A stretch of DNA of 30,984 nt from the IMG/VR virus record IMGVR_UViG_3300027833_001855, positions 1-30,984 of that record. One strand, 5' to 3'. The translations under genes were made by a program, and so were the position numbers. Numbering within the stretch: position 1 is the stretch's first letter; the number at the start of each line of letters is the position of its first letter. The notes beneath the pieces were generated by a model, which did not search any database, was not told where the DNA came from, and saw nothing but the letters and a program-made list of their open reading frames with translations. Positions 1,425-30,983 of the stretch are shown here, one piece after another. The DNA comes from a virus.

Positions 1425-1676
1425 ATGAAAAAACGAACACGAAGTATTTTAGAAGAACTTAATAATCTTCCCTTGCGTAAGAGTAATGATCACTTAATCG
1501 AATCTTCTGCAAATAATATTATTGAAAGTGCTATTAATTTATTAAATAGAATTAATGAACAGTACGACGAAGTAACAGCAAGCGAACTTGAAAGACGTTT
1601 TTTAAATTCTATAAGAACTGGCGATCCTAAGAAGTTTAAGCGTGTAATTGGTAAAATTATAGAGAGTAAACAATGA
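1425..1676 (+). CDS. Conserved T4-like phage small protein
   Basis: An 83-residue protein starting MKKRTRSILEELNN. The ATG at 1425 is chosen because GGAG (1415-1418) lies 6 bases upstream; the frame is open further upstream but that would overlap the promoter. It is basic at both ends and predicted mostly helical, with a central segment INLLNRINEQYDEVTASELERR cut by few turns and a terminal GDPKKFKRVIGKI. The type is familiar from T4-like cyanophage genomes as a short protein of unknown function. It is the first gene of an operon and overlaps the next by 4 bases (ATGA), which suggests translational coupling. ILE followed by E at residues 8-10 could be a prohead-protease-type site, but this is weak. 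Confidence 0.8.
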   Translation: MKKRTRSILEELNNLPLRKSNDHLIESSANNIIESAINLLNRINEQYDEVTASELERRFLNSIRTGDPKKFKRVIGKIIESKQ

Positions 1677-2893
1677 AAATAGAAGACTTATTAGAAGCAC
1701 CTAAAGCTAAAAAAGATTCAAGTTGGATTAAGAAAGCTGACGATTGGATGCGTGGTTCGTTTATGCAACAACAGATTGATAAAGCTCAATCTAAGACAGG
1801 CATGGCAGGCCCTGCCGGAACAAGTACACCGGTAAAAAAAGCAGTTAAAAAGAAGAAGCCTGGCAAAGCACAGTTTAAGAGTGACAAAATTAATACTAAG
1901 AAGATTCCAACATCAGCACAGTTTAAAGATCCAGCAAACATTGTATGGGCTTGGGAACCTTCTAGGAATTCATGGCTAGCAAATGATAAGAATAGTATTC
2001 CGTTAGATGCAAAAGCTGGAGCAGTACAATACAATAAAACAGATAGAAGTCGTAGAGGCTTTTACGAAAGTAAAGTATCTACAAAGCAAGTATTAAAAGA
2101 AGGCGGCAACATATTTAAATCTGAACCAGACAAAAAACTAATGGTTCAGCGTATTGCTACGCCAGACGTGCATCCTACTATTCAGTTTATTGAAAAGATT
2201 ACAGGCTTAGTGTTTGACGAACAAGATTGGTTAGGTACTACTGGTAAAAAAGAACATGCAGACGGGTCGGTTGAAAAGAATAGCTCAGGTGACTTGGATC
2301 TAAACACAGACGAAAACAAAGTAAGCAAGCAAGAATTAATTGCTACACTTACAGCGTGGTGTAAGAAGCAAGGCATTGCTGATGCGGATATTATGAACAA
2401 AGGCCGTACTAAGCAGGATGGTTGGATTCAGCTAGCCGGTGCCCAAGTACACTTTCGCACACCTATCAAAGGCGATGCTAAGAACGGCTTTGTTCAAACA
2501 GACTTTATGTTTTCACTTAATCCTGACTTCCAACGCGGAGCCAAGCGTGGAGGAACAGAACGGTTTGGTGGAATGGACAGAGCAATATTGTTGTCAAGTT
2601 TAGCAAGAGGCCGCGGATATAAGTTTAGTCCTGTGTTAGGTGTTGTTGATCCTAACAATGGTGACCAAGTAGTTACTAATGACTGGAGCAAAGGTATTCC
2701 AGAACTATTGTTAGGCAAGGGTGCTAAAGAAACTGACACGCACACAGTTGAAAGTATGCTTGCATTTTTAAAGAAAGATCCAAACTACGAAGAACTAATT
2801 GCTCCGTGGAAAGAAACAATGACCAAGGCTGGCAAAGAAGTACCTGAGAGTAGCAACGAAATTATTGATATGGCACACAGGATGAGCAGATGA
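1673..2893 (+). CDS. Nucleotidyltransferase-fold protein, possibly capsid-packaged
   Basis: A 406-residue protein. Residues 1-9 (MKIEDLLEA) resemble the T4 capsid-targeting sequence with an L-x-E cleavage site. A low-complexity basic linker follows (about 15-75, rich in KKAVKKKK). The conserved part starts near 140 (GGNIFKSEP). It contains LGTTGKK near residue 187 followed by SGDLDL near 206-210, which fits the polymerase-beta nucleotidyltransferase pattern hG(S/T)...DhDh. A possible third acid lies in FVQTDFMF near residue 277. Related proteins occur in T4-like cyanophages. The substrate (RNA end, protein or nucleotide) cannot be told. It overlaps both neighbours by 4 bases. The fold is inferred from motifs; the packaging is a hypothesis. 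Confidence 0.75.
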   Translation: MKIEDLLEAPKAKKDSSWIKKADDWMRGSFMQQQIDKAQSKTGMAGPAGTSTPVKKAVKKKKPGKAQFKSDKINTKKIPTSAQFKDPANIVWAWEPSRNSWLANDKNSIPLDAKAGAVQYNKTDRSRRGFYESKVSTKQVLKEGGNIFKSEPDKKLMVQRIATPDVHPTIQFIEKITGLVFDEQDWLGTTGKKEHADGSVEKNSSGDLDLNTDENKVSKQELIATLTAWCKKQGIADADIMNKGRTKQDGWIQLAGAQVHFRTPIKGDAKNGFVQTDFMFSLNPDFQRGAKRGGTERFGGMDRAILLSSLARGRGYKFSPVLGVVDPNNGDQVVTNDWSKGIPELLLGKGAKETDTHTVESMLAFLKKDPNYEELIAPWKETMTKAGKEVPESSNEIIDMAHRMSR

Positions 2894-4038
2894 GATTTGT
2901 TGAATTTAAACAACCAGTAAAGCAACCTCTTAAAGAAATGGAAGCCCGTATCCAACATGCAGAAGACCTAGTATTTTGGGAAGGCTCTAAAGGAGCAATG
3001 CGAGCAGTTGAAGCACTTCGCAGTATGTCAGGAGACGCCCATAAAGCAGTAACACTTAAATGGGACGGAAGTCCTGCAATGGTGTTTGGGCGAGACGATG
3101 CAGGCGAGTTTATATTCACAGATAAGTCAGGATTCATGGCAGTCAAAACAGATGGTAAAGCAAAGAGTGCAGAACAACTACAAGATATTATGCTTAGTCG
3201 AAGTGGCGGCAAGTACCGCGAAGATCCAAAGCGCATAGCATTTGCCGCCGAGTTATCAGGACTGTTTACTGTATACGAAAAAGCAACGCCAGCAGATTAT
3301 AGAGGGTTCTTCAAAGGCGATCTATTATATAAGTCAACACCGGTAATTAAAGAAAAGAACTATATCTTTAAGCCACAGATTGTTGAGTATGCAGTAGATG
3401 TAGACAGTGACTTAGGTAAGCGTATAGGCGCAAGTACATCCGGCATTGTAATACATAGAGAAGTAGATGCAGATGGCAATGAAAGTCCGTTTGATAGCAT
3501 TGACTTGTTTAATAATCAAAAGGATTTACTAGTAGTACCTAGTGTAACTACAGTAGCACCTGTCGAAGTTGACACAGGTGTTATTGACCAGCTCGTACAA
3601 ACTATTAAACAAAATGCCGCAGGTGTAGACGAATTACTAAATGCTAACACCTTAGCAACACAGCAAATGAAAGCACTACCTGATTTGCTGTATACATACA
3701 TGAATAGTAAAGTTGACTCAGGTCTAACTAATCTAGGTGCAGACTTTGCATCTTGGCTGGAGAACAGAAAACAAGTTTCAGATAAAATGAAAGTTAAAGT
3801 GTTACAATATATTGGTCAACACAAGGTTGCGTTCGCATCAATGTGGACTGTAGTAACAGCAGTTATGGCTACCAAGGACAATATTATTAATAAATTTGAT
3901 AGCCAAGGCGGCGAGGTTAAACAAAGCATTAACGGTCAACCAGGCGGCGAAGGCTATGTATTAGCTCACCCCAAAGGCGATATGAAGTTTACATCAAGAG
4001 CAACATTTAGTGCGGCAAATAGAGCGGTAGTAAGATGA
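2890..4038 (+). CDS. DUF6267-like protein with ligase-type KxDG motif
   Basis: A 382-residue protein from a family common in T4-like marine phages (I think DUF6267, unverified). LKWDGSPA carries K57 in a K-x-D-G context, as in motif I of ATP-dependent DNA/RNA ligases and capping enzymes. ELSGL near residue 121 could match motif III and SGIVIHRE near 184 could match motif IV. GDLLY and FKPQIVEYAV lie between these and are family hallmarks. I did not find a clear motif V. The C-terminal 170 residues are helical and of unknown role. The N-terminus MRFVEF...PLKE resembles a targeting segment with an L-x-E site. It overlaps both neighbours by 4 bases. Nucleotidyl transfer is an inference from motifs only. 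Confidence 0.75.
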   Translation: MRFVEFKQPVKQPLKEMEARIQHAEDLVFWEGSKGAMRAVEALRSMSGDAHKAVTLKWDGSPAMVFGRDDAGEFIFTDKSGFMAVKTDGKAKSAEQLQDIMLSRSGGKYREDPKRIAFAAELSGLFTVYEKATPADYRGFFKGDLLYKSTPVIKEKNYIFKPQIVEYAVDVDSDLGKRIGASTSGIVIHREVDADGNESPFDSIDLFNNQKDLLVVPSVTTVAPVEVDTGVIDQLVQTIKQNAAGVDELLNANTLATQQMKALPDLLYTYMNSKVDSGLTNLGADFASWLENRKQVSDKMKVKVLQYIGQHKVAFASMWTVVTAVMATKDNIINKFDSQGGEVKQSINGQPGGEGYVLAHPKGDMKFTSRATFSAANRAVVR

Positions 4039-5006
4039 CAGAAAAATTTACAGCATCACAATGGGCAGAGATAGAAGGTGGACACGTAATGACGCCTTCA
4101 ACTGATTATAATGATTTAATGGACGAAAGCCAAGTAGCAAAACCATACTCGTTTATTAAAGATATAAGCGAAGCAAGACTAACACGAACAGATGGCGGTG
4201 TTAAGACACTTACATATACTGACTGTAAAGAAAGAATGTATCTTACTATTCTTATGCTTGAAGTTCTTAGACAGTATCCAACTTATGCAAGGACAGCGGC
4301 AAACTATGCTAGAATGACTAAAGGCCAATACAACTACTTTGATGCTAAAAAATCTGACTTACACAACTTCATTTATTTCCTAGTAGGAGATAGCAATGCA
4401 CAAAATAAACTTAAAGATCCTGATGCGGCAAAACGTCTAAGAGAATCTACTAAAATTAATCTTAGTTTATTAAATGCTTACTTGACTAGTGTTAGTAATA
4501 ATACATTGCCAAATAGAGTAAGTGAGCTTTTAATTAAACTAGAAAGTGATCTTTCAATAACTAATACCGACTACAAAGCAGTAAGACGAATTCTTACACA
4601 GTTTAGTAGTGCTAGTTTAGGTAATAAACAGAAAGTTGTAACAAGATTGCTTATTGCGGCAAGGGCAAAGTTACGTACTAGTGATTTAATTGACGACTTT
4701 AGTAAACTAGCCGCAGATAAGAATCTAGAAACATCAGCAGTAGTAGACAACGAGCCTACAGTTAGTACACCAGACTTGGGTATGAGTGCCAAAGATGCCA
4801 GTTTGTATAGATACTTAGTAGGTACTCAAAACTTAGCACAAGCTAGACAGTTCTTAGCGTTAGCATCACAAGGACGATCAATACCAAATACATATGTACA
4901 AGCGTATTTGCCTGCTATTAAAATGATAGACGATATAGTACAAGCTGGCCCAACATATGTACAACATTTGCGTAATCTGCAACAGAGAGCCAAAAAGAGC
5001 CGATAA
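4035..5006 (+). CDS. Helical protein of unknown function, operon partner
   Basis: A 323-residue, apparently all-helical protein. It overlaps the ligase-motif protein by 4 bases (ATGA), so the two are probably translated together. Features include an N-terminal soluble segment (MTEKFTASQWAEIEGGHVM), a central helical stretch rich in Leu, Asn and Lys (about 120-230), and a basic C-terminus (LRNLQQRAKKSR). It has no signal peptide, membrane segment or recognisable catalytic motif. It could be an accessory or scaffolding partner of the two upstream proteins, or a virion protein. It is the last gene of the operon. I do not recognise a family. Confidence 0.75.
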   Translation: MTEKFTASQWAEIEGGHVMTPSTDYNDLMDESQVAKPYSFIKDISEARLTRTDGGVKTLTYTDCKERMYLTILMLEVLRQYPTYARTAANYARMTKGQYNYFDAKKSDLHNFIYFLVGDSNAQNKLKDPDAAKRLRESTKINLSLLNAYLTSVSNNTLPNRVSELLIKLESDLSITNTDYKAVRRILTQFSSASLGNKQKVVTRLLIAARAKLRTSDLIDDFSKLAADKNLETSAVVDNEPTVSTPDLGMSAKDASLYRYLVGTQNLAQARQFLALASQGRSIPNTYVQAYLPAIKMIDDIVQAGPTYVQHLRNLQQRAKKSR

Positions 5007-6659: not shown

Positions 6660-6947
6660 ATGTATTTAAGAGAACTCACAGATCACATCACCGAAAAACA
6701 AGTATGGGCACGTTCTGGAAAGAAGGTCGTTCGCAAATATCGCTGTTCAGGTGGTAAAAGACATGGCAGGATTGTAAGTAGTCCTGCGGCATGTTTCGCC
6801 GCGCCTGATATGAAAAAGCGCATGTTAATGAAACGTACAAAAGCCAGACTAGGTAATAGAATGGCCCGTAAGTCTAAGCGTACTAAGAAACAAAATCCAG
6901 CAAGCCGTAGAGTTCAGCAGATGAACAAGAGTAGTAGAAAAAGATGA
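6660..6947 (+). CDS. Highly basic small protein, candidate packaged DNA-binding protein (copy 1)
   Basis: A 95-residue, extremely Lys/Arg-rich protein. MYLRELTDHITE resembles a T4 capsid-targeting sequence ending in an I-T-E protease site. Then comes WARSGKKVVRKYRC, a short Gly/Arg segment with two more Cys-containing turns, and a basic C-terminal tail with KRTKKQNPASRRVQQMNK. The next gene (6944) is a divergent duplicate sharing W-x-RSG-x-K-x-VRKYRC, GRIV and ASRR. Similar basic proteins occur in T4-like cyanophages. The charge suggests nucleic-acid binding, possibly inside the head. No ribosome-binding site precedes the ATG. It overlaps the next gene by 4 bases. Confidence 0.8.
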   Translation: MYLRELTDHITEKQVWARSGKKVVRKYRCSGGKRHGRIVSSPAACFAAPDMKKRMLMKRTKARLGNRMARKSKRTKKQNPASRRVQQMNKSSRKR

Positions 6948-7309
6948 AGCTACGTGAACTAATTACTGAATGGGTATGCGGGGATTGTAGTGCTGAACCT
7001 TGCCAATGCAGTAGCTTAGACGAGGGCGCTCGATCTATTTGGGGGCGTAGTGGAACTAAACAAGTCCGCAAGTATCGTTGCACTAGTGGACAGCGTAAAG
7101 GACGCATTGTTGCAAAAGCGGCAACATGTAATGCTCCAATTAACCAAACTTCTCGTGTTACTATGAAGAAGACAAAACGGGCTAAGGCCAATAAGATAAA
7201 GATTAACACAGCAAAAACTAAGCGTACTAACACAGCTTCAAGACGGTTGTCAAGAATTAACAAACGTCCAAAGAGAAGATTTGCTAAAGGAAGGTCAAAG
7301 AAAATATGA
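6944..7309 (+). CDS. Highly basic small protein, candidate packaged DNA-binding protein (copy 2)
   Basis: A 121-residue duplicate of the preceding protein. MKLRELITE closely mimics the T4 internal-protein targeting sequence and ends in an I-T-E site. An added cysteine patch, CGDCSAEPCQC (about residues 12-22), is absent from copy 1 and could bind a metal. Then WGRSGTKQVRKYRC, GRIVAKAATC and a Lys/Arg-rich tail with NTASRRLSRINK follow. It overlaps both neighbours by 4 bases, so the genes are probably co-translated. DNA condensation in the capsid or action on host nucleic acid after entry is an inference from charge and N-terminus. Confidence 0.8.
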   Translation: MKLRELITEWVCGDCSAEPCQCSSLDEGARSIWGRSGTKQVRKYRCTSGQRKGRIVAKAATCNAPINQTSRVTMKKTKRAKANKIKINTAKTKRTNTASRRLSRINKRPKRRFAKGRSKKI

Positions 7310-7767
7310 GATATCGTGAGTTTAAAAAAGAAGCACGTACAGATGAGATCCTTCCAGCTATTGCAGGCGGCGTAGCTAAAGTAGGCGCAGGAATTGCTAA
7401 AGCAGGCGCAAAAGCAGTAGGCGGCGCAGTTGCTAAAGTAGGTGCGAAAGCAGTTAAGGCAGTTGGTAGTGCAGGCAAAAGCATGGCAACTAAAGTAGCC
7501 GGTGCTGCCGCAGATAAGTTAAGTCAAGAATTAATTAAGCGTGGATCTAAAATTCCAATGCCGACTGAAAAAGGTGCAAAAGAATTTGAAATTGATGATG
7601 TTAACGGTGACGAAGTAACGCTAGTTAACCCAGATGCATCAAAGGCTCCTGAAGAGCCAGAGAAAGTTACATACAAAAAACAAGACATTGATACTATTGT
7701 GCAAGGTCTCCAACAGGGCGCAGGCGGAAACAATCCAAATGCTACAATTGGAAACCAAAATCCATGA
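7306..7767 (+). CDS. Ala/Gly-rich amphipathic phage protein
   Basis: A 153-residue protein. The start MRYREFKKEA resembles the targeting-like N-termini of neighbours but lacks a clean (L/I)-x-E site. Residues about 18-75 repeat short units of the type AKVGAGIAKAGAKAVGG, making a long Ala/Gly/Lys amphipathic helix or hinge. The C-terminal half is acidic, with FEIDDVNGDEVTLVNPDAS, and ends in a Gln/Asn/Gly-rich tail. The repetitive Ala/Gly region could insert into or lie along a membrane, as in some ejected proteins. It overlaps both neighbours by 4 bases. No family was recognised with confidence. Confidence 0.75.
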   Translation: MRYREFKKEARTDEILPAIAGGVAKVGAGIAKAGAKAVGGAVAKVGAKAVKAVGSAGKSMATKVAGAAADKLSQELIKRGSKIPMPTEKGAKEFEIDDVNGDEVTLVNPDASKAPEEPEKVTYKKQDIDTIVQGLQQGAGGNNPNATIGNQNP

Positions 7768-7982
7768 AGATTAATGATCTTATATCAGAGTTTACAATTG
7801 CAATGAGCAATGAAGAAAAGACACTGTTGAATTCGATTAAGGGAGCAATGCCTTATGAGAGTTTTAACGAACGAGAGCAGTTCATAATGACTAATCTCAT
7901 TCGAAAGAGTCTGGTAAGTAAAGTACATAACAATGGATACACTCTGGTAACTCAAAATGGACCAAGCATCACTAATATCTGA
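7764..7982 (+). CDS. Small protein with targeting-like N-terminus
   Basis: A 72-residue soluble protein starting MKINDLISEF, again like the T4 capsid-targeting sequence with an I-S-E site at residues 7-9. The rest is helical (NEEKTLLNSIKGAMPYESF) and ends with a short polar segment. It overlaps the previous gene by 4 bases and the next by 26 bases in another frame. No catalytic motif or membrane segment. Its function is unknown; membership of a capsid-packaged set is inferred from the N-terminus and gene order. Confidence 0.7.
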   Translation: MKINDLISEFTIAMSNEEKTLLNSIKGAMPYESFNEREQFIMTNLIRKSLVSKVHNNGYTLVTQNGPSITNI

Positions 7983-9530: not shown

Positions 9531-9593
9531 CTTGACATACTCTTAATTCCCTGCTATAATATTAATTAATTAGGAGACTTAACGTATGACAAG
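9531..9593 (+). promoter_or_regulatory. Imperfect hairpin joining promoter -35 region to start of gene 9586
   Basis: CTTGACATAC (9531-9540, containing the -35 box) pairs at 9 of 10 positions with GTATGACAAG (9584-9593, containing the ATG at 9586), followed by TTAA/TTAA (9543-9546 with 9579-9582). mRNA from the local promoter, starting near 9567, would lack the left arm. Read-through mRNA would have its start codon paired. Confidence 0.45.
9532..9560 (+). promoter_or_regulatory. Consensus sigma70 promoter of the NifU-like gene
   Basis: Perfect TTGACA (9532-9537), 17-base spacer, perfect TATAAT (9555-9560, with upstream TGC). Start expected near 9567; AGGAG lies at 9572-9576. Confidence 0.85.
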
Positions 9594-9918
9594 AACAACT
9601 GAAGAAGTTGTAGACCAAATCAAAAACTTAATCGAAACTAACGTGAAGCCAGCAGTTGCCGGACATGGAGGAATAATTGAATTCCTCTCATACAAAGATG
9701 GCAATTTAGTAGTTGAACTAGGCGGAGCATGTTCTGGATGTTCGAGTAGTATTGAAACACTCAAAATGGGTGTCGAGAATATGATTAAACATTTTGTACC
9801 GGAAGTTCTTACTGTATCATCAGAAGATGGTATTAGTGATGTAGCACCGTATTACACCGATCATTACGATGACTTCAACATGAATGACTACGGCCGTGAC
9901 GGATTAGATCATGAGTAG
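9586..9918 (+). CDS. NifU C-terminal-domain (Nfu) iron-sulfur carrier
   Basis: A 110-residue protein with the Nfu fold: VDQIKNLIETNVKPAVAGHGG then the Fe-S binding CSGCSSS (C49 and C52) and a helix SIETLKMGVENMIKHFVPEV. Nfu proteins bind a 4Fe-4S cluster between two monomers and pass it to target enzymes in the cytoplasm. A C-terminal acidic, Tyr/Asp-rich tail of about 25 residues is an addition to the core. It overlaps the PD-(D/E)XK nuclease gene by 8 bases; some RecB/Cas4-type nucleases carry an Fe-S cluster, so a carrier-client link is possible, though no Cys cluster is evident in that nuclease. It has a consensus promoter. Confidence 0.9.
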   Translation: MTRTTEEVVDQIKNLIETNVKPAVAGHGGIIEFLSYKDGNLVVELGGACSGCSSSIETLKMGVENMIKHFVPEVLTVSSEDGISDVAPYYTDHYDDFNMNDYGRDGLDHE

Positions 9919-12724: not shown

Positions 12725-15028
12725 ATGTCAAACGGAATAATGGTTGTAAAGCGCAACGGAACGCAGGAAAGACTTAACATTGAAAAAATTCATGTTGTAG
12801 TACAAGAAGCATGTGACGGACTAGCAGGGGTTAGTAGTTCACAAATTGAAATGAACGCAAACTTGCAATTTTATGATGGCATGAGTACTAACGAAATACA
12901 AGAGGTGTTGATTAGATCAGCTAATGACTTAATTAACTTAGACGCTCCGAACTATCAATATGCGGCAGCACGTTTGCTTTCGTACTCTACTAACAAGCAA
13001 GTGTTTGGTGAGTACAATGCAATTCCGTTACGTAGAATGATTGACCTTAACATTGAGCGCGGACTATATGATACAAATATTCTTGTTGATTATACTGACA
13101 CAGAACTAGAAACACTCGACGGTTATATTCGTCATAAGCGAGATGAAAACTTTACCTATGCAGGCATGCGCCAAGTAGTAGACAAGTATCTTGTACAGGA
13201 TCGTTCAACAGGTGAACTATTTGAAACTCCTCAGTTCATGTATATGATGATTGCGGCAACACTATTTGCAAACTATCCAGCAGAAACACGTATGCACTAT
13301 GTAAGGAGATACTACGATGCGACCTCACTTTTTAAAATTAATATCCCAACGCCAGTCATGGCCGGAGTTAGAACACCTGTGCGACAGTTTGCTTCGTGTG
13401 TCCTTGTTGACAGTGATGACACCCTTGACAGTATCTTCGCTAGTGATATGTCGATTGGTAGATACACTGCACAAAGAGCGGGTATCGGAATCAATGCAGG
13501 CCGCATCAGAGGCGTCAACTCACGCATCAGGGGAGGAGAAGTAGCACACACAGGTATTGTCCCGTTCCTAAAGAAGTTTGAATCAACAGTACGTTGTTGT
13601 ACACAAAATGGTGTACGTGGCGGCAGTGCAACTACACACTTCCCGTTTTGGCATCAAGAGATTGAAGACATCCTTGTACTAAAGAACAACAAAGGTACTG
13701 AAGACAATCGTGTACGTAAGTTAGATTATTCGATTCAACTTAACAAAACTATGTATGAAAGATTGTTATCTGGAGGCAATATAACATTGTTCTCGCCGCA
13801 CGATGTTCCAGGGTTATACGAAGCATACTTTGGTGACCCGTTAGAATTCCAGGCATTGTACGAAAAATATGAACGTGCTACGAGCATTAAGAAACGTACT
13901 GTATCAGCAATGGAGTTGTTTTCTGCGTTGATCAAAGAACGTGCAGAAACAGGACGTATCTACATTATGAATGTTGATCACTGTAATACACACAGCTCAT
14001 TTAAAGATAAAGTTTACATGAGTAACTTATGTCAAGAGATTACATTGCCAACTAAGCCACTTAATCATATCGATGACGAAGAAGGCGAAATTGCATTGTG
14101 CATTTTGAGTGCCATTAACGTAGGTATAATTAAAGACTTAACTGACTTAGAAGAGCTATGTGAGCTTGCAGTACGGGCGCTAGAAGAAATTATTGATTAT
14201 CAAAACTACCCAATACTTGCCGCTGAAAAAAGCACAAAGGCACGAAGAAGTTTAGGTGTAGGCTATATTGGCCTAGCACACTACCTTGCAAAGAATCATG
14301 TTAAGTATGACGATCAAGAAGCATGGCAACTAGTACATGACTTGTCAGAAGCGTTCCAATATTACTTGCTTAAAGCCAGCAATAAATTAGCGCAGGAACG
14401 AGGCCCATGTGAGTACTTTAACCGTACTAAATACAGTGACGGCATCATGCCTATCGACACTTATAAGAAAGATGTTGATACTATTGTGGAGCACAAGTTA
14501 AACTATGATTGGGACAGTCTACGGGCATCTATCAAAGAACACGGCCTCAGGCACAGCACTTTGTCAGCACAAATGCCTTCAGAGAGTTCGTCCGTTGTGT
14601 CAAACGCAACAAACGGAATTGAGCCACCTAGGGGATACTTGTCCGTTAAGAAAAGCAAAAAAGGGCCTCTTAAGCAGATTGTACCACAGTATACTACACT
14701 AAAGAACCACTACACGTTGTTATGGGACATGCCATCAAACACAGGATATATAAATACTGTTGCAGTAATGCAGAAGTTTTTTGATCAAGCAATTAGTGGC
14801 AACTGGAGTTATAACCCTACGCACTTCCCAGACAATGAAGTTCCAATGAGCCAGATGATACAAGACTTGTTAACAACATATAAATTAGGTTGGAAGACTA
14901 GTTACTATCAAAATACATATGATTATAAAACAGATCCAAGTGAACTAGAAGATGATTTACCGTTAGAAGCACTAGCACCTAGTGAGATGGATATGACCGA
15001 AGAAGAATGCGAGGCATGCAACATTTAA
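12725..15028 (+). CDS. nrdA: Ribonucleoside-diphosphate reductase, class Ia large subunit
   Basis: A 767-residue alpha subunit that reduces ribonucleoside diphosphates to deoxy forms. Residues 1-90 hold an ATP-cone (VVKRNGTQERLNIEKIH), so dATP-type activity control is retained. C225 (ASCVL) and C459 (ALCILS) are the active-site redox pair. N434, C436 and E438 (NLCQEI) are the radical-site residues. The C-terminus EECEACNI carries the CxxC that exchanges with glutaredoxin, whose gene lies downstream. Length and motifs match E. coli NrdA, and no intron or split is present. GAGGAG precedes the ATG. nrdB follows after 63 bases with its own promoter. Confidence 0.97.
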   Translation: MSNGIMVVKRNGTQERLNIEKIHVVVQEACDGLAGVSSSQIEMNANLQFYDGMSTNEIQEVLIRSANDLINLDAPNYQYAAARLLSYSTNKQVFGEYNAIPLRRMIDLNIERGLYDTNILVDYTDTELETLDGYIRHKRDENFTYAGMRQVVDKYLVQDRSTGELFETPQFMYMMIAATLFANYPAETRMHYVRRYYDATSLFKINIPTPVMAGVRTPVRQFASCVLVDSDDTLDSIFASDMSIGRYTAQRAGIGINAGRIRGVNSRIRGGEVAHTGIVPFLKKFESTVRCCTQNGVRGGSATTHFPFWHQEIEDILVLKNNKGTEDNRVRKLDYSIQLNKTMYERLLSGGNITLFSPHDVPGLYEAYFGDPLEFQALYEKYERATSIKKRTVSAMELFSALIKERAETGRIYIMNVDHCNTHSSFKDKVYMSNLCQEITLPTKPLNHIDDEEGEIALCILSAINVGIIKDLTDLEELCELAVRALEEIIDYQNYPILAAEKSTKARRSLGVGYIGLAHYLAKNHVKYDDQEAWQLVHDLSEAFQYYLLKASNKLAQERGPCEYFNRTKYSDGIMPIDTYKKDVDTIVEHKLNYDWDSLRASIKEHGLRHSTLSAQMPSESSSVVSNATNGIEPPRGYLSVKKSKKGPLKQIVPQYTTLKNHYTLLWDMPSNTGYINTVAVMQKFFDQAISGNWSYNPTHFPDNEVPMSQMIQDLLTTYKLGWKTSYYQNTYDYKTDPSELEDDLPLEALAPSEMDMTEEECEACNI

Positions 15029-15031
15029 CGG

Positions 15032-15060
15032 TTGACACATTAATACTATTATAATATAAT
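15032..15060 (+). promoter_or_regulatory. Consensus sigma70 promoter of nrdB
   Basis: TTGACA (15032-15037), 17-base spacer and TATAAT (15055-15060), both perfect. Start expected near 15067. It lets nrdB and glutaredoxin be made independently of nrdA. Confidence 0.85.
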
Positions 15061-15091
15061 AATAGCATAGACACAGTAAGGAAGAAGCTAG

Positions 15092-16195
15092 ATGGCAAAG
15101 ACAATATTTAACCAAGAAAAAGTAGACTTCACAAAACAGAATATGTTCTTCGGAGCAGACATGAATACACAGCGTTACGATACATTCCGTTTTCCGGTGT
15201 TTGATAAACTAAATCAAACCATGCTGGGATATTTTTGGCGGCCAGAAGAAGTAAGTCTACAAAAAGATCGTGCAGACTTTGCTAACTTCCGCCCAGAGCA
15301 GAAGCATATCTTTACAGCAAACTTAAAGTACCAAACGCTACTTGACAGTGTTCAAGGACGCGGCCCATGCCTAGCATTTTTGCCGCATGTTTCATTGCCT
15401 GAACTAGAAGGATGTATTGTTACTTGGGACTTCTTTGAAACAATCCATTCACGTAGCTATACGCATATTATGAAAAACGTGTACGCTGATCCATCAGAAG
15501 TTTTTGATACTATACTAGATGACGAGAAAATTATTGCTCGTGCAACTAGTGTCACTAAGCATTACGATGCATTTACTGAAGCTGCCGACGCATACAATCA
15601 CAGAGGTGAAGGTAGCATGGCTGACGTTAAGAAAAAACTATATCTTGCAATGATGACAGTTAACATCCTTGAAGGATTGCGTTTTTATGTAAGTTTTGCA
15701 TGTACCTTTGGCTTTGGAGAACTAAAGCTAATGGAAGGTAGTGCTAAGATTATTAGTCTTATTGCTCGCGATGAAGCTCAGCATTTAGCGTTATCGACCC
15801 ATGTATTGAAACTATGGGCACAAGGCAAAGATGATCCAGAGATGGCTAAGATTGCTAAAGAGTGTCAAGAAGAAGTATACGAGTTGTGGCGCGAATGTGT
15901 TGAAGAAGAAAAGGATTGGGCAGACTATTTGTTCAAAGACGGGTCAATGATTGGTCTTAACACTACACTGCTTAACCAGTATGTTGAATACATTGCTAAC
16001 CGTCGACTTAAAGCACTTGGTCTTAATGCTATCTTTGATGCACCAGTAAACACTAATCCGCTTCCGTGGACACAGCATTGGTTGTCAAGTTCAGGCTTGC
16101 AAGTTGCTCCACAGGAAACAGAAGTAGAATCATATATCATCGGCGGCATTAAGCAAGATGTGTCAACTGATACACTTAAAGGATTCAGTTTATGA
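15092..16195 (+). CDS. nrdB: Ribonucleoside-diphosphate reductase, class Ia small subunit
   Basis: A 367-residue beta subunit that holds the di-iron centre and tyrosyl radical. SRSYTHI places the radical tyrosine at residue 123, as in E. coli NrdB. Metal ligands are seen in WDFFETIHSRS, in NILEGLRFY and in RDEAQHLALS. The C-terminal tail ends KGFSL, the part that docks on NrdA. Tyr123 shows that it is a class Ia, not a Mn or Phe type. It overlaps the glutaredoxin gene by 4 bases, giving coupled production of reductase and its reductant. Assignment secure. Confidence 0.97.
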   Translation: MAKTIFNQEKVDFTKQNMFFGADMNTQRYDTFRFPVFDKLNQTMLGYFWRPEEVSLQKDRADFANFRPEQKHIFTANLKYQTLLDSVQGRGPCLAFLPHVSLPELEGCIVTWDFFETIHSRSYTHIMKNVYADPSEVFDTILDDEKIIARATSVTKHYDAFTEAADAYNHRGEGSMADVKKKLYLAMMTVNILEGLRFYVSFACTFGFGELKLMEGSAKIISLIARDEAQHLALSTHVLKLWAQGKDDPEMAKIAKECQEEVYELWRECVEEEKDWADYLFKDGSMIGLNTTLLNQYVEYIANRRLKALGLNAIFDAPVNTNPLPWTQHWLSSSGLQVAPQETEVESYIIGGIKQDVSTDTLKGFSL

Positions 16196-26664: not shown

Positions 26665-27234
26665 ATGTCAGACTTAAAGGCGGATATTTGGTTCCCTACA
26701 TTAGTATGGCATAAGAAACTTACTACAGATTTAAATGCAGTAACAAATTATGCCTTAACTTTAAAGGACAATACTAAAGGTACAAATTTAAGTAACTATG
26801 GTGGATGGCAGAGCGAAGGCACTGTTCTTCCACCAGAGCATGTTGAGTTATTAATTGAACTAGACCAAACAATTAAAACATGCTGTCAGCAAGCAGGACT
26901 ACCTCCGTTAAAGTTATATAACACTTGGTTTTGTGTTAACGGTTATGGCGATTATAACACAGTACATAATCATCAAGACTCTGTACTAAGCGGAGTAATA
27001 TATCTAAATGTACCTGATGACAAGTGCGGAGATATTGAGTTTTATAGAGACGATGACAGTAGTTATTATATTCCAGATTTAGAAAACTATAACAACTTTA
27101 CATCACAAAAGGCAACCTACACCCCCACAGTGGGGAAAATGTTAATTTTCCCCGGATGGCTAAAACACAGTGTACAAGGAAGTAGAAGCCAAGGCGAACG
27201 AGTAAGTATGTCGTTTAATTATGGAGTTAGGTAA
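26665..27234 (+). CDS. 2OG-Fe(II) oxygenase (second of two)
   Basis: A 189-residue dioxygenase of the TIGR02466-like phage type. It has [11 protein letters not shown] at the start, [20 protein letters not shown] then [14 protein letters not shown] with the iron-binding His/Asp region, [13 protein letters not shown] with the distal His, and GERVSMSFN with the 2-oxoglutarate Arg. It starts 2 bases after bS21 and its stop shares one base with guaC. Hydroxylation of a protein such as a ribosomal component is an idea suggested by the bS21 neighbour; some ribosomal oxygenases use this fold. Target unproven. Confidence 0.88.
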
Positions 27235-28334
27235 TGAGAATTGATCAAGACGTTAAACTAGATTACAAGGACGTATTAATTCGACCAAAGCGTAGTACGC
27301 TTAAAAGTCGCAGTCAAGTACGACTCGACCGTAAGTTTAAATTTAGAAACAGTAAAGCAGAGTACGAAGGCATTCCTATTATGGCAGCTAACATGGATGG
27401 TGTTGGTACATTTGCTATGGCAGACAAACTTGCCGAAGGCAGCATCTTTACTTGTCTTGTTAAAACATACAGTCAAGAAGAAATTGCGCTTTACTTTACT
27501 GAAGGCATCAAAGAGCGTACAGAAAACGTTGCTATGAGCATTGGCACAAGTTGGGAAGACTTTGACAAACTGTCAGCAGTAGTTACTATGGTTGGTGAAG
27601 AGTTGAAGTACGTATGCATGGATATTGCAAATGGGTATAGTGATCACTTTGCAGAACATGTTAAGAAAGTACGTAATGCGTTTCCAAATATTGTAATTAT
27701 TGCCGGAAATGTAGTAACAGGTGAAATGACAGAGGAGTTGATTCTTGCAGGAGCAGACATTGTTAAAGTGGGTATCGGGCCTGGTAGCGTTTGCACTACT
27801 CGTATCCAAACTGGTGTGGGATATCCACAGCTCAGTGCCGTTATTGAGTGCGCTGATGCCGCTCATGGCCTTGGTGGTCATATTATTGCTGACGGTGGTT
27901 GTACCTGTCCTGGGGACGTTGCTAAGGCTTTTGCGGGCGGGGCCGACTTTGTAATGCTCGGTGGTATGCTTGCTGGACACGATGAAGGCGGCGGCAAAGT
28001 AATTACTAAAATTTATGAAACAGATGAAGTTATTGAAACAAATGATAACTTCTATGAAGCAGTATACAAGAAAAAACAGTTTGTAGCGTTCTACGGTATG
28101 AGTAGTGATGCCGCAAACACAAAACATTTTGGTGGACTTAAAGACTATCGTTCATCGGAAGGCAGGGAAGTCTTAGTTCCTTACAGGGGCTCTGTTGGTG
28201 TAACCATACAAGATTTAACCGGAGGACTAAGATCTACCTGTACTTATGCAGGCGCAATGAAACTTAAACAACTTAGTAAGTGTACAACGTTTGTGCGCTG
28301 TACTCAACAATTTAACGGAATATATGCAAAATGA
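27234..28334 (+). CDS. guaC: GMP reductase
   Basis: A 366-residue enzyme that converts GMP to IMP and ammonia with NADPH. The N-terminus [20 protein letters not shown] and the segments [27 protein letters not shown] (catalytic C187), [20 protein letters not shown] and [12 protein letters not shown] closely follow E. coli GuaC rather than IMP dehydrogenase; there is no CBS domain. Length is slightly above GuaC. The gene overlaps the oxygenase by one base and the next gene by 4. Together with prs it redirects purines, likely from guanine toward adenine nucleotides. GuaC is unusual in a phage. Confidence 0.95.
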
Positions 28335-29060: not shown

Positions 29061-30983
29061 ATGGGAAAAGTAATAGGTATCGATCTCGGTACTACAAACA
29101 GTTGTCTAGCAGTGGTAACAAGCTCGGCACAAAAAATCATAGAAAATAAAGACGGCCAAAGAACAACACCTAGTATTGTTGCGTACACAGACAACGAAAC
29201 ACTAGTTGGTATGCCTGCTAAACGACAGGCAGTAACAAATCCAAAAAACACAATATATGCGGCAAAGAGACTTATTGGTCGCAAATTTAAAGACGAAGTA
29301 ATTCAAAAGGACATTAAGAATTCGCCCTTTGATATCTGTGAAGCTGGAAACGGTGATGCATGGGTTAGAGTCAATAGTCAAGAAATAGCACCACAACAAG
29401 TTAGTGCTGAAATACTTCGTAAAATTAAAGAGTCAGCAGAATCATATCTTGGCGAAACAGTAAGCCAAGCAGTTATTACAGTGCCGGCATACTTTAATGA
29501 CGCACAAAGACAAGCAACAAAAGACGCAGGTAAAATTGCAGGATTAGAAGTCCTACGTATTATCAATGAGCCTACAGCGGCGGCACTTGCTTATGGTGTG
29601 GACCAACAACTTAAAGGTGATAGAACTATTGCAGTTTATGACCTAGGTGGTGGTACATTTGATATTTCAGTTATTGAGATCTCTGAACAAGATGGTGAGA
29701 AGCAATTTGAAGTATTGTCAACTAATGGTGATACATTCTTAGGTGGTGAAGATTTTGACAATGCTCTACTAGATCATTTAGTAGACGAATTTAAAAAGTC
29801 AGATGGCTTTGATCTAAAGACTGATTCAATGGCACTACAGCGTTTAAAAGAAGCCGCTGAAAAAGCAAAAGTAGAACTTAGTAGCACAACGCAAACAGAA
29901 ATAAGTTTGCCATACGTTACTGCTGATGCTACAGGACCTAAGCACTTAACAATTAGTATTACAAGAGCTAAGTTTGAATCACTAGTAGAAAAACTAATAT
30001 TGCGTTCAATCAAACCTTGTAAGACTGCATGTAAAGACGCAGGCATTGAAGCAAAGAACATTGACGAAGTTATACTAGTTGGTGGACAAACACGTATGCC
30101 AGCAGTACAAACAGCAGTTGAAAACTTCTTTGGTAAAGCACCTCGTAAAGATGTTAACCCAGATGAAGCAGTTGCAATGGGTGCGGCTATTCAAGGTTCA
30201 GTACTAAGTGGAGAAACAAATGACGTACTATTGTTAGACGTTACTCCTCTGTCATTAGGTATTGAAACAATGGGTGGTGTGATGACTAAGATCATCGATA
30301 AGAACACAACTATTCCTACTAAGAAGTCACAAACTTTTAGTACGGCAGAAGACAATCAACCTATCGTAACTATTACAGTTGGACAAGGTGAGCGTGAGTT
30401 TGTACGTGATAATAAAGTACTAGGACAGTTTAACCTAGACGGTATTAGACCAGCACGTAGAGGCGAACCACAAATTGAAGTTACCTTTGACTTAGATGCA
30501 AACGGTATCTTGAATGTGTCAGCAATGGATACTGCAACACAAAAGAAACAAAACATTGTGATTAAGGATTCAAGCGGACTTAACGAAAGCGAAATTGAGC
30601 AAATGATCAAAGACGCTGAAGCTAATGCTGACAAAGATAAGACTGCAAGGGAACTAGTAGATACTAAGAACCTAGCAGAAGGAACCATTTCACAGTTTAA
30701 GAAAGACTACGAAGCAGTTAAAGACAACGAAACACTAAGAGATTTAGATGTTGAAGTGTTTAATGCTAGTATAGAAAGTCTTGAAGAAGCGTGTAAAGGT
30801 GACGACAAAGTTGTAATTGACGAAGCGTTCGCAAAACTTCAAGAGGCTATGCGACCTATATTTGCTATTAAAGATAGCTCAGAACAGGATCAAGCTCAAG
30901 AAGAATTCGATGTTACTGACACTGAAAAAGATGAACACATCGTTGATGCAGAATTTACTGAAGGTAATACTGATGATAAATAA
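29061..30983 (+). CDS. dnaK: Full-length Hsp70 chaperone DnaK
   Basis: A 640-residue Hsp70, as long as E. coli DnaK. The ATPase domain has [15 protein letters not shown] at the start, [30 protein letters not shown] and [11 protein letters not shown]. The linker is [15 protein letters not shown]. The substrate domain runs to about 510 and includes GILNVSAMD, followed by the helical lid. The acidic tail ends [14 protein letters not shown], like the conserved bacterial DnaK tail. No dnaJ or grpE is present here, so host co-chaperones would be needed. All signature motifs are intact, so it should be active. The stop ends one base before the window edge. It is probably acquired from a host. Confidence 0.97.

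Follow-up and report, generated by a model that had tools for sequence, protein, structure and literature searches.

A Pol X-like nucleotidyltransferase and a DUF6267 ligase-like protein encoded side by side in a viral operon: candidates for head-packaged end-repair enzymes

The window analyzed here is a 30,984-nucleotide stretch of DNA from a large marine bacteriophage (IMG/VR record IMGVR_UViG_3300027833_001855, positions 1 to 30,984), and it contains an operon of four plus-strand genes with successive 4-base overlaps (Table 1). The second, third and fourth genes are referred to as NT, LIG and HEL. Profile comparison and structural modeling place NT as a divergent Pol X-like (family X, Pol beta) protein, a distant relative and not a curated Pol X member, whereas LIG belongs to the DUF6267 family and moderately resembles a ligase in its predicted fold. 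The two are encoded together across many viral loci, and both carry N-terminal sites resembling those cut by prohead proteases. We put at roughly even the chance that NT and LIG are head-packaged end-repair enzymes, which would fill or tail broken ends, seal them and be delivered with the DNA.

The Pol X fold of NT is strongly supported. The AlphaFold2 model has a confident core, with residues 132-143 disordered, and a Foldseek search of the PDB returned Pol X proteins (Pol beta, TdT and Pol mu) at all ranks from 1 to 39, the best values being E 0.014 and a probability of up to 0.98. Alignment of the NT core by hhalign with a bacterial Pol X profile, built from 23 bacterial Pol X sequences gathered through Pfam PF14791, gave E=1.3e-5 over 124 columns; its score of 43.6 was reached in 0/40 column shuffles, whose maximum was 19.1. 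This alignment pairs SGDLD with GDID, together with downstream thumb-side segments. NT shares with DNA polymerase X (Pol beta, Pol mu, TdT and bacterial PolX) the palm fold, the GS loop and the DxD motif with a third Asp, and the following helix and C-terminal segment also align; it differs in lacking the RRG of the classic signature, in carrying propeptides and in being fused to or adjoining a ligase-like protein. All distinct homologs (165/165) have G206, D207, D209 and D277, and 153/165 keep G188. The original prediction, which was made from the letters of the sequence, had guessed a polymerase-beta-type enzyme from LGTTGKK...SGDLDL (NT residues 187-210); structure and profile both bear this out and narrow it to a Pol X-like fold, and the aspartates of its DLD, D207 and D209, are the conserved residues just listed.

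No family in Pfam or PHROGs scored above its cut-off for NT, so no curated Pol X model passed, and the NT profile gave chance matches only against PDB sequences. RNA ligase-associated Pol beta nucleotidyltransferase (RlaP, PF10127) was tried as an identity and rejected, as NT has no Pfam match to it and hhalign against a profile of 18 RlaP sequences gave E 0.59 and a score of 12.7 versus a shuffle mean of 13.2. The viral contigs contain at least 559-592 NT matches; in bacterial genomes no homolog was found with the patterns used. Relative to free-standing homologs, which start M-I-L-x-E-GGN, the window NT carries an extra basic N-terminal extension of ~140 residues. This extension, W[IV]KKADDW... 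(window 1697-2100), is common to loci L017, L021, L244 and L246, whose NT cores are very different, and extension and core seem to have been swapped as modules. Lying between two [LI]xE sites, the extension could be freed as a peptide of its own.

LIG matches Pfam DUF6267 (PF19782) with E=2.6e-31 and 109.8 bits against a gathering score of 27. At least 588 LIG matches occur in viral contigs, and four matches in bacterial genomes come from marine metagenome-assembled genomes, possibly from phage contigs; a search for DUF6267 in the accessible literature found no paper. The case for a ligase-type fold is moderate and weaker than that for NT. K57, D59 and G60 are invariant in the 159/159 homologs with sequence at that place, and E354, G355 and K366 in 163/163. 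The predicted model (pLDDT 90, residues 1-19 disordered) matches best in the PDB the adenylyltransferase domains of fungal tRNA ligases, with the DNA ligase of African swine fever virus (ASFV) and human capping enzyme lower, while among the BFVD viral models the family members are followed by a series of RNA ligases, led by an Atu_ph07 'RNA ligase' at rank 15 (E 0.007). Profile comparison of DUF6267 with jumbo-phage RNA-ligase-like proteins gave E 0.0026 (0/60 shuffles), locally, at motif I and motifs IV-V, and comparison of LIG with an Rnl1 profile gave E 0.035 (0/60 shuffles); the jumbo-phage matches are suggestive, not conclusive. Against the Rnl2 profile the score was no better than for shuffles, profile comparison gave no support to T4 gp30 DNA ligase as a relative, and a search of PDB sequences with the LIG profile gave chance matches only. 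With T4 RNA ligase 1, Rnl2 and the Atu_ph07, Phosso and PA5oct proteins, LIG shares motif I KxDG, motif IV EGxV and the motif V lysine, but it differs by a large helical insertion between motifs III and IV, by weak global similarity and by Asp in place of Glu in the motif-III-like segment. LIG is a putative ligase. The KWDG that had been read as ligase motif I is indeed present at residues 57-60, with its lysine and the key residues of motifs I, IV and V invariant, and structure prediction with Foldseek returned the nucleotidyltransferase fold expected for NT and the ligase-type fold expected for LIG, the latter with weak statistics.

A functional link between NT and LIG is supported, because the two genes are adjacent and are found fused in both orders. 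The overlapping open reading frames at 1673, 2890 and 4035 and the pairing of NT with LIG had both been noted in the original prediction, and the pairing extends well beyond the window. Where an NT-query locus has 2.5 kb or more of sequence downstream, LIG follows NT with its start no more than 1.5 kb away in 101/108 cases, and one remaining locus is an NT-LIG fusion; 184 locus pairs have a 4-base overlap between NT and LIG and 54 a 1-base overlap, and all four families occur together in 130/170 sequences (169 viral loci and the window), although some loci are overlapping stretches of one contig and the counts are not all independent. One fusion type reads NT-linker-LIG and has 777 amino acids (L203/L282). 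The other, of 990 amino acids and present at five full-length loci, reads LIG-NTase-like-NT (NTase, nucleotidyltransferase), its middle domain matching the NT core with E=4.8e-5 and its last domain with E=2.3e-20.

In jumbo phages, an RNA-ligase-like protein takes the place of LIG. In Atu_ph07, an RNA-ligase-like gene lies directly upstream of homologs of NT (E 2.5e-28) and HEL; this gene was equated with the BFVD entry by phage, annotation and length (both 324 residues). Phosso has the same arrangement, with a counterpart RNA-ligase-like gene beside its NT and HEL homologs, and a scan of viral contigs for relatives of the Phosso protein found none. In PA5oct, gp256, a protein with KIDG and EGYV, lies three genes after gp259, the copy of the first gene, and three before gp253, the NT homolog. 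First-gene homologs are present in PA5oct, Phosso, SCTP-2 and others, and the jumbo-phage copies come after a gp41-type helicase. HEL is kept downstream in both Phosso and Atu_ph07; its profile gave chance matches only against PDB sequences.

Several variants of this arrangement were observed. S-PM2 (L311, 5983-7755) has a fusion of DUF6267 with an HxGH cytidylyltransferase, and in S-SZBM1 DUF6267 adjoins one. HxGH cytidylyltransferase-like genes starting MRLRELFEA and MKLRQLFES directly follow LIG in two marine contigs (L207, 7943-8533, and L029, 9137-10162, respectively). Within a DUF6267/cytidylyltransferase operon, HTVC008M gp129 (L310, 7727-8386) is a Zeta-toxin/AAA_33 P-loop kinase starting MIPFILKE↓G (the arrow marks the predicted cut), possibly a third enzyme, of polynucleotide-kinase-like type, bearing a comparable site. 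In loci L007-L016, L022 and L024, LIG is ~80% identical to the window LIG and NT is not adjacent. True loss of NT from the L007-L016 group was ruled out for four contigs, which have a divergent NT elsewhere; no NT was found on the 149-kb contig G002, which may be incomplete. The separation of NT from LIG in this group suggests cassette recombination.

The N-termini of the operon proteins point toward the phage head. T4 gp21 cleaves after L/I-X-E, and internal head proteins bear N-terminal targeting propeptides of 10-19 residues (PMC9026906). An [LI]xE followed by A or G within residues 2-45 was found in 94% of distinct NT N-termini, 67% of those of LIG and 67% of those of HEL. Among 1279 other genes of these loci the share was 7%, and among shuffled N-termini it was 5-11%. 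The percentages come from related sequences and not from independent events, but L/I and E are kept in these sites while the residue ahead of E is highly variable. The 990-residue fusion has only three [LI]xE[AG] sites (about 1.2 expected anywhere): the one at residue 19 precedes LIG, the one at 385 follows it and the one at 720 precedes the last NTase domain; the 777-residue fusion has two, ahead of NT and ahead of LIG. A Peptidase S77 (prohead protease) gene is present in four relatives, G002, HTVC008M, S-SZBM1 and PA5oct. Furthermore, PA5oct gp253, the NT homolog (E=3e-23), is annotated as 'structural protein, ESI-MS/MS', the ESI-MS/MS denoting electrospray tandem mass spectrometry, and the virion presence of this homolog is taken from that annotation. 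The targeting-like N-termini noticed earlier are thus present and enriched, and the suggested head targeting by analogy with T4 Alt gains from both the enrichment and the annotation.

In the mechanism that we propose, NT and LIG would be made with short N-terminal propeptides steering both to the prohead core, where a T4-type prohead protease would cut after [LI]xE, so that the capsid would hold the enzymes in mature form. Both would enter the cell at infection and work ahead of any phage gene expression: NT, as a Pol X-type enzyme, would add or restore nucleotides at broken ends, and LIG, once nucleotidylated on K57, would seal them. The likeliest substrate would be RNA, such as tRNA cut by host defense nucleases, and the next likeliest damaged or gapped incoming phage DNA. 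RNA is favored because the nearest named folds to LIG are RNA and tRNA ligases, because the jumbo-phage proteins in the position of LIG are RNA-ligase-like, and because an NTase with an RNA ligase is an existing proposal for RNA repair in jumbo phages (RlaP; PMC7824862). Held more tentatively is the fuller version, in which the Pol X-like NTase and the DUF6267 ligase would form a virion-delivered repair machine, in some phages one polyprotein cut by the prohead protease, that reverses the damage done by host nucleases to RNA or DNA ahead of any phage gene expression.

Several observations weigh against packaged end repair. The PDB fold statistics for LIG are weak (best E 0.05, with many helical chance matches between), its sequence-profile matches to RNA ligases (E 0.0026-0.053) are mostly short and local, and neither fold nor role was recognized for HEL. 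The cues to the substrate conflict, since Pol X likeness points to DNA and RNA-ligase likeness to RNA. In the window, Met rather than Ala or Gly follows the cut site of LIG, and no prohead protease was found within the 31-kb fragment. The annotation of PA5oct gp256 carries no mass-spectrometry note, and the 30 proteins found in virions of S-SZBM1 include the neighboring cytidylyltransferase but not DUF6267 (PMC9146016).

DNA repair by packaged enzymes, with NT as a minimal Pol X filling short gaps and LIG sealing nicks in the incoming phage genome, stays a serious rival because the closest relatives of NT are DNA polymerases X, although on the whole we consider it unlikely. The damage would come from sunlight, from nuclease or restriction cuts or from packaging nicks, with a parallel in Pol X and ligase in base-excision and end-joining repair, and DNA damage does befall marine surface phages. 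NT is nearest to DNA polymerase X by both fold and profile, the fold matches of LIG include ASFV DNA ligase, and the jumbo-phage operon comes after a DNA primase/helicase gene; yet the nearest named folds to LIG are not DNA ligases, a Pfam scan recognized no DNA-binding HhH or OB domain in NT or LIG, and T4-like phages normally have a DNA ligase of their own. A smaller probability is given to covalent modification, in which the pair would put nucleotides on host proteins or RNA (AMPylation, UMPylation or RNA-protein joining) for host takeover at entry, much as T4 Alt does with ADP-ribose. Delivery at entry would fit such a role, the Pol beta superfamily includes protein-targeting NTases, and the DUF6267 fusion of S-PM2 points to a recurring chemistry of nucleotide transfer. 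However, NT is nearest to a Pol X polymerase and not to a protein-modifying NTase, and it keeps the Pol X C-terminal region; moreover, the proteins that hold the LIG slot in jumbo phages are RNA-ligase-like.

Two further explanations do without action at entry as repair enzymes, and we regard both as highly improbable. The enzymes might work late in the infected cell or during head assembly, with [LI]xE uncut and virion presence incidental. Authors of cyanophage proteomes caution about carry-over after cesium chloride purification (PMC10665884), and the failure to detect LIG in S-SZBM1 virions is in line with this; the enrichment of sites in three unrelated neighboring families and at fusion joints, and the annotation of an NT homolog as detected by mass spectrometry, argue against it. 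Still slimmer is the chance that the three proteins NT, LIG and HEL serve in the head core or in structure, with old enzyme folds and no enzymatic job. Annotations as structural or virion proteins exist for the first gene and for the PA5oct NT homolog, and prohead core proteins likewise carry gp21 sites (PMC9026906), but structure alone leaves unexplained why catalytic residues are invariant across deep divergence in NT and in motifs I, IV and V of LIG.

The closest prior idea to packaged end repair is that of an RNA ligase acting with RlaP in jumbo phages, where lost nucleotides would be restored before sealing; the available text of PMC7824862 does not describe it as packaged. The idea is the same, a polymerase-beta-fold NTase beside an RNA ligase, but here NT is not detectably RlaP, LIG is DUF6267 and not Rnl1, Rnl2 or RtcB, and that text mentions no head-packaging signals for RlaP. 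In T4 internal head proteins and Alt, the mature protein is likewise preceded by a short N-terminal propeptide that ends in [LI]xE (PMC9026906), whereas the cargo here would be a polymerase/ligase-type pair and not an ADP-ribosyltransferase or antirestriction peptide, with cleavage predicted from the sites. The cytidylyltransferase/NMNAT-like proteins of cyanophage virions (S-SZBM1, S-CREM2 and S-SCSM1) are likewise nucleotidyltransferases in virions, with a DUF6267 neighbor in S-SZBM1, but they have an HxGH fold unrelated to Pol X, and their authors propose a role in nicotinamide adenine dinucleotide metabolism. The components therefore resemble known kinds, and packaged enzymes and NTase-ligase repair pairs are already known ideas; in the literature searched, the combination of a DUF6267 ligase-like partner with prohead-protease-like sites on all parts was not found described. 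Of the original prediction of a candidate new system, the folds (that of LIG with weak statistics), the link, the idea of head targeting and the statement that neither family has an assigned function are supported, while its novelty is limited by the earlier proposal of an NTase with an RNA ligase.

If the fuller version is true, NT and LIG would be a counter-defense cargo of a new kind, common to marine T4-like and jumbo phages. Mending what the host has damaged before phage transcription begins would count as a counter-defense strategy of its own. Two abundant viral families with no assigned function are connected with each other, with the head and with the folds of Pol X and ligases, which gives them an immediately testable role as enzymes acting at entry. 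In addition, the fusions, with protease-like sites inside them, would be a polyprotein-like route for loading enzymes into the capsid.

Table 1 Features of the operon, followed by other genes of the window. Arrows mark predicted cuts.
Feature	Position	Strand	Description
First gene	1425..1676	+	83 aa (amino acids), ATG at 1425, starts MKKRTRSILEELNN; small, conserved; PHROG 11854 'virion structural protein', E=4.3e-15
NT	1673..2893	+	406 aa; Pol X-like nucleotidyltransferase, core ~144-395, basic N-terminal extension
NT first propeptide MKIEDLLE↓A	1673..1696	+	Prohead-protease-like site
NT second site VLKE↓GGN	2090..2101	+	Just before core; start point of free-standing homologs (M-I-L-x-E↓GGN); 133/138 distinct N-termini
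NT nucleotide-binding loop LGTTG	2231..2245	+	Residues 187-191; aligned to Pol X GS loop
NT metal-binding motif SGDLDL	2285..2302	+	D207, D209; aligned to Pol X GDID
NT third catalytic acid QTD	2495..2503	+	D277
LIG	2890..4038	+	382 aa; DUF6267, covalent-nucleotidyltransferase (ligase)-like
LIG propeptide MRFVEFKQPVKQPLKE↓M	2890..2937	+	Prohead-protease-like site
LIG motif I KWDG	3058..3069	+	Residues 57-60; K57, predicted covalent lysine for adenosine or guanosine monophosphate (AMP/GMP)
LIG motif-III-like GDLLY	3316..3330	+	D144 in 163/163; motif name putative
LIG motif IV GGEGYV	3943..3960	+	E354, G355; aligned to jumbo-phage RNA-ligase-like EGVVI
LIG motif V lysine K366	3985..3987	+	Aligned to jumbo-phage RNA-ligase-like proteins
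HEL	4035..5006	+	323 aa; predicted helical partner
HEL site ISE↓A	4164..4172	+	Prohead-protease-like
Phosphoribosyl pyrophosphate (PRPP) synthetase	96-1034
NifU-like	9586-9918
Ribonucleotide reductase large and small subunits	12725-16195
Inosine monophosphate (IMP) dehydrogenase-like	27234-28334
Phage HSP70	29061-30983

A search for tRNA genes in the window found none. Downstream of the operon, four small genes at 6660-6947, 6944-7309, 7306-7767 and 7764-7982 have targeting-like N-termini, reading MYLRELTDHITE, MKLRELITE, MRYREFKKEA and MKINDLISE, respectively. The first two of these are paralog-like and very basic, with RKYRCxxGxRxGRIV in common, and possibly encode internal head or DNA-binding proteins.

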